Part shown: positions 43,912 through 47,759 of the stretch, piece by piece
Numbering within the stretch: position 1 is the stretch's first letter
Layout: the number at the start of each line of letters is the position of its first letter
Assembly (NCBI GenBank): GCA_003574885.1
Contig: PJFC01000001.1
Coordinates: forward strand, 434,001 to 498,000
From: Geobacter sp.
GTDB taxonomy: Bacteria; Desulfobacterota; Desulfuromonadia; Geobacterales; Geobacteraceae
Reading direction: 5' to 3'
Length of the DNA: 64,000 nt
Notes under the pieces: model-generated
What the model was told of the DNA's origin: nothing
The model's input: only the letters and a program-made list of their open reading frames with translations
Databases searched by the model: none
Program-made: the position numbers and the translations under genes

Positions 43912-44385
43912 ATGTCACTGGAAGGTAAGCAGGCACCGGCCTTCGAGCTTGCCGGGAGCGACGGCAGGACACATTCATTGAAGGAATATGCCGGGAAGAC
44001 CGTCATCATCTATTTCTATCCGCGGGATAATACCCCCGGTTGCACCAAGGAGGCATGCGGCTTCCGTGACCACCATCAGACCTTGGGAGCTCTAAATGCA
44101 GTGGTGCTCGGCGTGAGCAAAGACAGCCTCAAGTCCCACGACAAGTTCATCGCCGATTTCAAGCTCCCCTTTACCCTCCTCTCCGACCCGGAGGCAAAGA
44201 TGATGGCCGCCTACGGGGCCTTCGGCGAAAAGGTGATGTACGGCAAGAAAACCACCGGCACCATCCGCTCTACGGTCATCGTCGGCCCGGACGGAAAGGT
44301 CGTCAGGCACTGGACGAAGGTGGCAAAGGCGGAGAGCCACCCGGCTGACGTCCTGGCCTTTTTGCAGCAGAGACAGGCCGCCTGA
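43912..44385 (+). CDS. bcp: Thioredoxin-dependent peroxiredoxin (Bcp/PrxQ)
   Basis: A 157-residue BCP/PrxQ peroxiredoxin. FYPRDNTPGCTKEACGFRD contains the peroxidatic and resolving cysteines five residues apart, as in the alpha-type BCP group; KKTTGTIRSTVIVGPDGK follows. It reduces peroxides with electrons from thioredoxin. The thioredoxin gene begins 11 bases downstream, so reductant and peroxidase are very likely made together. GAGGGAGGA precedes the ATG. Confidence 0.93.
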   Translation: MSLEGKQAPAFELAGSDGRTHSLKEYAGKTVIIYFYPRDNTPGCTKEACGFRDHHQTLGALNAVVLGVSKDSLKSHDKFIADFKLPFTLLSDPEAKMMAAYGAFGEKVMYGKKTTGTIRSTVIVGPDGKVVRHWTKVAKAESHPADVLAFLQQRQAA

Positions 44386-44396
44386 GAAGGGGGGCC

Positions 44397-44861
44397 ATGA
44401 TGGCCGACGACACCGTTTTTATCGTGCCCTGCTTGCGGTGCGGCACCGCCAATCGGGTTCCGGCAAGCCGTGAAGGTGAGGCGGGGAGGTGCGGCAACTG
44501 CCATGCCGACCTTCCTCCTCTCCATACGATGCCGATCACTCTTGACAGCAGCAGTTTCGATTCGTTTGTGAACGCATCCCCCGTACCGGTAATGGCCGAA
44601 TTCTGGGCTCCCTGGTGACCCCACTGCCGCGACCTCGCACCGGTGGTGCGGGAAGTAGCCAGGGGGCTGGCTGGCCGGGCCGCCGTGGTTCAGGTCAATA
44701 CGGATGATAATCCCCGGCTTTCCCAACGGTTCGGCATCCGGGGAATACCGGCCGTTTTAATCATCCGGCAGGGGCAGGTGCTCGATTCCATCAGCGGCTC
44801 CCGTGACAGGAACTCCCTCATCGACTGGTTCAACAGGGTGGTCGGGCAGAAGGGGCAGTAA
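44397..44861 (+). CDS. Thioredoxin-2-like protein with an in-frame UGA (selenocysteine) at the active site
   Basis: Read through a TGA at 44616-44618, this is a 154-residue TrxC-like protein: an N-terminal zinc ribbon (CLRCG...CGNCH), then the thioredoxin fold with EFWAPW-U-PHCRDLAP and the cis-Pro loop GIRGIPAVL. The TGA falls exactly at the first active-site Cys (residue 74), the second Cys is kept and the frame continues to a normal TAA. A SECIS-like hairpin follows at 44634-44652. A standard gene caller would split it into two fragments. A nonsense mutation is the alternative. It probably serves Bcp, encoded 11 bases upstream. Confidence 0.82.
44634..44652 (+). promoter_or_regulatory. Bacterial SECIS-like hairpin
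   Basis: CTCGCACC and GGTGCGGG pair over eight positions (one U-G) with loop GGU, starting 15 bases after the UGA; the loop is about 24 bases downstream. Bacterial SECIS elements place a small loop, with G at the first positions, roughly 16-37 bases after the UGA, and the E. coli fdhF loop also has GGU. Confidence 0.7.
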
Positions 44862-44928: not shown

Positions 44929-45369
44929 ATGCCGAGACTTATAGCCGGTAACCAATCTCTTCAGGTCTCCCCACTCCAGGGGGAGCTGGTGCCGCTCATC
45001 GCCTACACGGCCGTCGCGGTGCTTCTCATCGGAGTGCTCCTCCTGGCTGCCTGGTGGCTCGGCGCCCGACGGACCAGCGACGTCAAGGGGGAAGCGTACG
45101 AATCGGGCGTCATCCCCACCGGCACCGCCCGACTCGCTTACCCGGTCCCCTTCTACCTGGTCGCCATCTTCTTCATTGTCTTCGACGTCGAGGCGGTCTT
45201 CATCTTCGCCTGGGCCGTGGTCTGGGACGATCTGGGGCTTCCCGGCCTCATTCACATCACCTTCTTTATCGTGGTGCTTCTCCTGGGCCTCGTCTGGCTT
45301 TTGCTGAAGGGAGGCCTCGACTGGGGACCGTCACAAACTGTTCAACGTTCAACAAATCCCGAACCTTGA
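44929..45369 (+). CDS. nuoA: NADH-quinone oxidoreductase subunit A
   Basis: A 146-residue membrane subunit of Complex I with three transmembrane helices. The signature is YPVPFYLVAIFFIVFDVEAVFIFAWA, whose Asp/Glu pair lies near the quinone tunnel; YESGVIPTG is the loop before it. The ATG at 44929 has AAGGA upstream. It opens the nuo locus, 8 bases before nuoBCD. No separate promoter was seen, so transcription may come through from bcp and the thioredoxin gene. Confidence 0.93.
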   Translation: MPRLIAGNQSLQVSPLQGELVPLIAYTAVAVLLIGVLLLAAWWLGARRTSDVKGEAYESGVIPTGTARLAYPVPFYLVAIFFIVFDVEAVFIFAWAVVWDDLGLPGLIHITFFIVVLLLGLVWLLLKGGLDWGPSQTVQRSTNPEP

Positions 45370-45377
45370 TCTGACCT

Positions 45378-47759
45378 ATGAGCGAAAACGACACCATTAT
45401 ACAGGACAATATCCTTCTCACCCGCCTGGACGACCTCATCAACTGGGGGCGGGCCAATTCCCTCTGGCCGATGTTCTTCGGTCTCTCCTGCTGTTTTGTC
45501 GAGATGATGACCTCCTTCACCTCCCGCTATGACATTGCCCGTTTCGGCGCCGAGGTGCTGCGCGGTACCCCCCGGGAGGCGGACCTGATGGTGATCGCCG
45601 GTACGGTCTTCAAGAAGATGGCCCCTTCCGTACTTCGCCTCTACGAGCAGATGGCCGAGCCCCGCTGGGTCATCTCCATGGGAAGCTGCGCCAATTCCGG
45701 CGGCATGTACGACGTCTACAGCGTGGTCCAGGGGGTGAACCAGATCCTTCCCGTGGATGTGTATGTCCCCGGTTGTCCCCCCCGTCCCGAGGCGTTCCTC
45801 CAGGGGCTCATGCTGCTGCAGGAGAAGATCAAACGGGATGAGCGGCCCTCCCGGCCGGTACTCCACCTTCAGGGCGGCACCCAGGGGACCACGGCACCGG
45901 TCCTGGTGGACGGGGTAAGCAAGTCACGGGATACCCGCGGTCCCGGCATGGAGAGGATTGCCATCCGCGGCACCTCGGTGCAGCACCCCCGGTTCTGGAT
46001 GCCCCGCTCCGACGAGATGTGGCGCCCCCCCGCACCGAAACAGACCTATCCTGATTTTGGACTTGCCGGCGAACTGGAGGCAGCCTTCGAACAGCGGGTC
46101 AAGCTCGACACGGCCGCCACCGACATGCTCACCTACCGGGCTCCGGCAGAGCTGGTGCCGGAGGTGCTGAAGTTTTTGAAAAACCTCGGCACCAACCCGT
46201 TCCGCCGCCTGGAGGACGTGGCGGCCGTGGATGAGTCGTGCCGCCGGGAGCGTGACAGCTTTCCCGACTTCACCCTCAACTACCACCTCCTCTGCTTCGA
46301 CACCCCCGGCCATATCCGGATCAAGACGGACCTGAAGGGTGATTCTCCCGAGCCGCCGAGCGTAACACCTGTCTTCCCCGCCGCCAACTGGTACGAGCGG
46401 GAGGTTTTCGACATGTTCGGCATCCGGTTTGCCGGCCATCCCGGCCTGCGCCGTATCCTCATGCCCCCCGACTGGGAGGGGTACCCCCTCAGGAAAGAGC
46501 ACCCGTTCCGGGCGACGGAGATGGCCCCCTACACCACGGAGGACGCACGCCGTCATCAGCCGCTCCCCGCGAGCGATTTCTTCGACCGGGTGGACGACGA
46601 GACCCTCATTCTCAATCTCGGCCCCCAGCATCCCGGCACCCATGGCATCATCCGCTTCATCCTGAAGCTGAACGGGGAAGAGATCGTTGACATGGACTCG
46701 GACATCGGTTTCCACCACCGGGGGGCGGAGAAGATCGGCGAACGCCAGCACTGGAACCAGTTCATCCCCTATACCGACCGGATCGACTACCTGGCGGGGG
46801 TGCAGAACAACCTGGCCTATGTGACGAGCGTGGAGAAGCTCTGCGGCATCACCGTTCCCGATCGGGCCATCACCATCCGGGTCATGCTGGCGGAACTGTT
46901 CCGGATCGCCAGCCACCTGGTCTGGCTCGGTACCTATGCCTCTGATGTGGGGGCCATGACACCGGTCTTTTACACCTTTACCGACCGTGAGAAAATCTTC
47001 GACATCGTCGAACAGATCACCGGCGGCCGGATGCACCCGGCCTGGTTCCGGATAGGCGGCGTGGCTGAAGACCTTCCCGACGGCTGGGAAGGGCCGGTGC
47101 GTGATTTCCTCGCCTGGATGCCCCAGCGGCTCAAAGAGTACGAGGATCTGCTGAACGGCAATCCGATCTTCACCGCCCGGCTCAAGGGGATAGGGGTTGT
47201 AACCGCTACGGAGGCTATGGAGTGGGGACTTTCCGGCCCCAACCTGCGAGCCTGCGGTGTGGAGTGGGACCTGCGTAAAAAGATCCCCTACGCCGGCTAC
47301 GATCGGTTCCAGTTTGACATGGTGACGGCTGAAGGAGGAGACTGCTGGGCCCGTTACCGGGTCCGGATGGGGGAAATACACCAGTCCCTCAGTATCGTCC
47401 GGCAGTGCCTCAACGACATGCCTGACGGCCGCTGGATTACGGACGATTACCGCTTCGTCCTGCCCCAGAAACGGGATACCCTCAACGACATCGAGTCCCT
47501 CATCCACCATTTCGTTAACGCGACGCGGGGAATGGCGCCGCCGGTCGGGGAGTGCTACCATGCCATCGAGGCCCCCAAGGGGGAAAACGGCTACTTCGTC
47601 GTTTCCGATGGTCTCAACGTCCCGTACCGGCTCAGGATCAAGACCCCCAGTTTCCCCCACATCCAGGCCCTCCCCCTCATGAGCAAGGGGTGGCTCGTGG
47701 CGGATTTCCTGGCGATTATCGGGTCCATAGATTTCGTCCTGGCAGATTTGGACAGGTGA
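45378..47759 (+). CDS. nuoBCD: Fused NADH-quinone oxidoreductase subunit B/C/D
   Basis: A 793-residue single polypeptide covering three Complex I subunits. NuoB (about 1-165) has the N2 cluster cysteines in [17 protein letters not shown] and PGCPPRPE. NuoC (about 240-395) has [14 protein letters not shown] and DWEGYPLRK. NuoD (about 410-793) has [15 protein letters not shown] and ends [11 protein letters not shown]. NuoCD fusions are common; a B/C/D fusion is typical of Geobacter relatives. It forms the peripheral-arm base where quinone is reduced. The frame is continuous through both junctions. Confidence 0.95.

Follow-up and report, generated by a model that had tools for sequence, protein, structure and literature searches.

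Thioredoxins containing selenocysteine (Sec) are already known as a kind in Geobacter, having been predicted about twenty years ago. Three Geobacter species (G. sulfurreducens, G. metallireducens and 'G. uraniumreducens') have thioredoxins among the selenoproteins reported by Zhang et al. (2006; PMC1794560), and the Thioredoxin TGA cluster of Fujita et al. (2007; PMC1914089) includes G. sulfurreducens GSU3446. In the former survey, Sec-to-Cys changes were recorded in only four families, and none of them in thioredoxin. Since the complex I cluster of G. sulfurreducens comprises GSU3429–GSU3445 (PMC5585712), GSU3446 adjoins that cluster, just as the gene described here adjoins nuoA. Judged by locus number and synteny, our gene, found in the window (the whole 64-kb stretch of Geobacter DNA that was analysed), is therefore the apparent orthologue of GSU3446: both are thioredoxins with an in-frame TGA located beside the complex I cluster, although GSU3446 belongs to G. 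sulfurreducens and the window gene possibly to another species.

The frame (Table 1) runs from ATG to TAA with the TGA as its sole interruption, and its read-through gives the active-site motif F-W70-A-P-W-U74-P-H-C77. The initial annotation had placed this TGA at the first active-site Cys of a TrxC-like protein and had followed the frame through a cis-Pro to a normal stop; both statements are borne out by the WAPW-U-PHC context, by P118 and by the TAA at the end of the frame. The read-through frame matches PF00085 (Thioredoxin, E 2.3e-25), NF008229 (TrxC, E 6.7e-33) and, above the cut-off, PF21352 (Zn_ribbon_Thio2), and these matches cover both sides of the UGA. The four Cys of the N-terminal zinc ribbon (C12-C15/C32-C35) are all invariant among the orthologues, as is P118 of I117-P118, which can be recognised from the sequence as the cis-Pro of the thioredoxin domain.

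The protein thus shares with TrxC (thioredoxin 2; NF008229, PF21352) the CxxC...CxxC zinc ribbon, the thioredoxin domain and the Ile-cis-Pro, but it carries Sec and Pro-His in the place of Cys and Gly-Pro. As the motif is WUPHC and not WCGPC, and the NF008229 score of 113.4 bits lies below the curated cut-off of 125, we refer to it as TrxC-like and not as the TrxC equivalog. The Pro-His dipeptide is typical of the active site of E. coli DsbA (CPHC; PMC4460558), and it is the only feature common to the two proteins. Unlike DsbA, the window protein has an N-terminal zinc ribbon and gave no DsbA domain match in the Pfam and NCBIfam scans of the read-through sequence, and its cis-Pro is preceded by Ile, not by Val as is common in bacterial DsbA proteins.

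Table 1. Features of the predicted selenoprotein locus (positions within the window)
Feature	Position	Strand	Remarks
trxC-like gene, predicted selenoprotein	44397..44861	+	154 aa with Sec74; domain matches; orthologues from 71 genomes of the order have a TGA in frame
UGA codon for predicted Sec74	44616..44618	+	position of the N-terminal active-site Cys; same column in 51/51 aligned UGA orthologues
Bacterial SECIS hairpin, CUCGCACC-GGU-GGUGCGGG	44634..44652	+	8 bp; arms 44634-44641 and 44645-44652, loop GGU 44642-44644; conserved in 51 UGA sequences
bcp/PrxQ peroxiredoxin, Cys form	43912..44385	+	11 nt upstream of the trxC-like gene; adjacency partly conserved
nuoA of the complex I cluster	44929..45369	+	downstream neighbour; named by sequence resemblance and position, no family scan

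The comparative data argue, with a probability that we put at about 0.96, for a real TrxC-type thioredoxin gene that is under selection and in which the UGA would be read as Sec74. With a threshold of E ≤ 1e-35, an orthologue was found in 83 of the 141 genomes of the order that were searched, 71 of them with the in-frame TGA and 12 without it; three further UGA copies are present in other families of the class. In an alignment of 51 UGA and 12 Cys orthologues, the TGA never leaves its column, which is occupied by TGC or TGT in the Cys genes (motif CPHC in 11 and CTHC in one). Such conservation of an in-frame UGA at a functional residue is the pattern by which bacterial selenoproteins are recognised. 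Protein identity with the relatives is 45–83%, the active-site residues other than that at the UGA position are invariant or nearly so, and conservation on both sides of the UGA points to selection on both halves of the protein. The initial annotation had envisaged that close relatives might all possess Cys here, with decay past the UGA; on the contrary, the close relatives carry UGA and the protein downstream of it is conserved.

An eight-base hairpin with a GGU loop had also been noticed about 24 bases past the UGA, and we find it with a spacing of 15 nt to the stem and 23 nt to the loop. In the single window sequence, taken alone, this structure is weak evidence and not extreme when compared with shuffled sequences: 1.6% of synonymous-codon shuffles reproduce an 8-bp stem at the same place, and the wider fold of the region has z = −1.28. 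The exact stem-loop core occurs only once in the window. The Rfam scan yielded chance matches only and none to a bacterial SECIS family; the location of the hairpin shortly past the UGA and the G residues in its apical loop are as expected for a bacterial SECIS element. Over the 51 aligned UGA genes the hairpin is always present and never shifts its position, 98% of its 8 base pairs are retained, and the loop reads GGU or GGC, with GGG in a single case. Compensatory changes in the stem were seen as C-G to U-A in four genes and as U-A to A-U in one. The lowest synonymous entropy among codons for conserved residues was found at +7, +8 and +10, all within the hairpin, where the UGA genes use GCA (50/51), CCG (51/51) and GTG (51/51), while all four synonyms are in use for conserved Ala, Gly and Val only a few positions away. 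Among the 12 Cys orthologues the hairpin has decayed in ten, all belonging to one clade, and is intact in two; the Pro at +8 is encoded by CCG in only 3 of 9 hairpin-less Cys orthologues. It is the retention of the hairpin wherever the UGA is present, together with its decay in these ten genes, that establishes it as real. The three UGA copies outside the order (L203–L205) have a nearly identical stem but an apical loop GUC in the place of GGU or GGC.

The initial annotation named a lack of Sec machinery as a sign of a pseudogene or sequence error, but the complete set could be located in the genome of the window (3.47 Mb in 23 contigs): selA scores above the cut-off, selB reaches 369 bits if the neighbouring match in the same frame is counted, tRNA-Sec has the anticodon UCA, and selD is present with an in-frame TGA of its own near the start. 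The Sec donor synthase encoded by the latter is probably a selenoprotein too; in the selD sequence L040 the context of the TGA is AAG-U-AAK. In the order, selA accompanies the UGA thioredoxin in 66 of 71 genomes, and of the five genomes devoid of it three have selB, two of these also with tRNA-Sec. In genomes G088 (96% complete) and G110 (92%), selA, selB and tRNA-Sec were not found; the thioredoxin genes there (L189 and L190, respectively) have both the UGA and the hairpin intact. This could reflect either an assembly gap or a recent loss of the Sec trait. Since selB, selA and tRNA-Sec are clustered within 3 kb in a relative (contig G085:C3), one gap could explain the absence of all three. 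In two near-complete genomes without selA, selB and tRNA-Sec (G095 and G098) the thioredoxin has Cys. The other ten of the 12 Cys genomes retain selA, so that Cys appears to have replaced Sec there without the loss of the machinery.

When a housekeeping gene contains an in-frame stop, this usually signals decay, and Cys forms do occur in 12 genomes of the order, so one might think of a trxC pseudogene or of a TGC or TGT codon misread during sequencing. The TGA is, however, found in 71 separate assemblies and at the same codon in every aligned UGA gene, both halves of the protein are conserved, and a frozen hairpin follows the UGA. This conservation of the codon, of both halves and of the hairpin rules out decay and sequencing error alike, and we consider the probability of either to be negligible. 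It is also highly improbable that the UGA is misread as Trp or Cys, or that the two halves are separate proteins, and we found nothing that speaks for either. The downstream half does contain a possible internal GTG start at 44643, but this lies past the active site, and the UGA stands for the catalytic residue, so splitting the frame would destroy an active site in which the other residues are nearly invariant. Moreover, TGA serves as an ordinary stop in the neighbouring bcp, nuoA and nuoBCD, and the genome possesses tRNA-Sec(UCA) and selAB; on these grounds a reassignment of the code was rejected.

The initial annotation regarded a Sec-thioredoxin/peroxiredoxin pair as likely given the adjacent bcp. 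Bcp/PrxQ enzymes generally use thioredoxin as their reductant, and bcp is indeed the immediate upstream gene in the window. In the 42 loci of the order whose flanks of up to 1.5 kb were compared, however, bcp lies upstream in only eight, all of them also with nuoA, and no bcp match is present within 1.5 kb in the other 34, while nuoA is the downstream neighbour in 16; in addition, the window Bcp is an ordinary Cys enzyme. Such a pair is therefore possible, but conservation does not support it. Bcp was rejected as a conserved partner, and a selenoprotein working mainly as the dedicated reductant of the neighbouring Bcp seems unlikely to us. Because copies linked to nuoA are found mainly among the basal members of the UPHC/CPHC clade, the location beside nuoA is probably ancestral; among the few copies away from nuoA that were inspected, no common neighbour was noticed. 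No promoter-like sites were found around the gene, and the two terminator-like sites there are weak and at about chance level. Near the selenoprotein gene, nuoB, nuoC and nuoD seem to be fused in one 793-aa frame (45378-47759).

In the phylogenetic tree, which was built on few columns and with the variable residue treated as missing data in the UGA rows (a one-column effect), the UPHC/CPHC genes all lie on one side of a branch with a support of 100/100, and most of the TrxC relatives whose active site was read elsewhere in the phylum have CGPC. The tree thus indicates a single origin of the UPHC clade from relatives of the CGPC type. Within this group it requires three separate changes to Cys, and the nesting of these genes together with the hairpin remnants suggests that the direction was from Sec to Cys on all three independent occasions. 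Two CPHC orthologues, L092 (G123) and L093 (G044), come from genomes with selA; as they are isolated on the tree and have the hairpin intact, they are apparently recent replacements with SECIS remnants, and the ten-gene Cys clade with the eroded hairpin is apparently an older one. Some genomes carry a second UGA thioredoxin (G009, G039, G051 and G102). In a further genome of the genus of the window, a second copy (L094) resides on the same 1.4 Mb contig (G002:C11) and groups with copies from other families, and its horizontal transfer within the order is probable.

During translation, SelB-GTP with Sec-tRNA(UCA) would bind the hairpin past the UGA, which would then be decoded as Sec to yield the full-length protein; if selenium or SelB were absent, a 73-aa fragment would be produced. 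Sec74 may attack disulfides of substrates, or oxidised peroxidases and reductases, and the resulting Sec74-Cys77 selenenylsulfide would be reopened by thioredoxin reductase. The decoding of the UGA at Sec74 is strongly supported by the comparisons described above, whereas we infer that Sec is actually incorporated, that the protein is cytoplasmic and that it follows this redox cycle, and we likewise infer any substrate.

Two aspects of this family may be new, as far as a non-exhaustive check of the literature since 2006 extends: the clade-specific UPHC motif, in which the DsbA dipeptide occurs together with a cis-Pro loop of the thioredoxin type, and the graded series of three reversions from Sec to Cys, two of them with the hairpin kept. 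No biochemical study of this protein appeared in the titles and abstracts of the literature on Sec-containing thioredoxins. The Pro-His dipeptide is retained in nearly all the genes, even after the replacement of Sec by Cys in three lineages. Tentatively, and with more doubt than confidence, the UPHC thioredoxin may be considered a distinct kind of redox protein and not simply a faster reductant. If so, the combination of Pro-His, Sec and the thioredoxin cis-Pro loop would give a very acidic selenol and an unusual potential, and the protein might do a specific job, possibly tied to the complex I locus. An annotation that splits the gene into products of 73 and 72 aa would be wrong across the whole order. 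The 51 UGA and 12 Cys orthologues, with a hairpin still intact in the two apparently recent Cys cases and eroded in the older Cys clade, also amount to a clean natural experiment.
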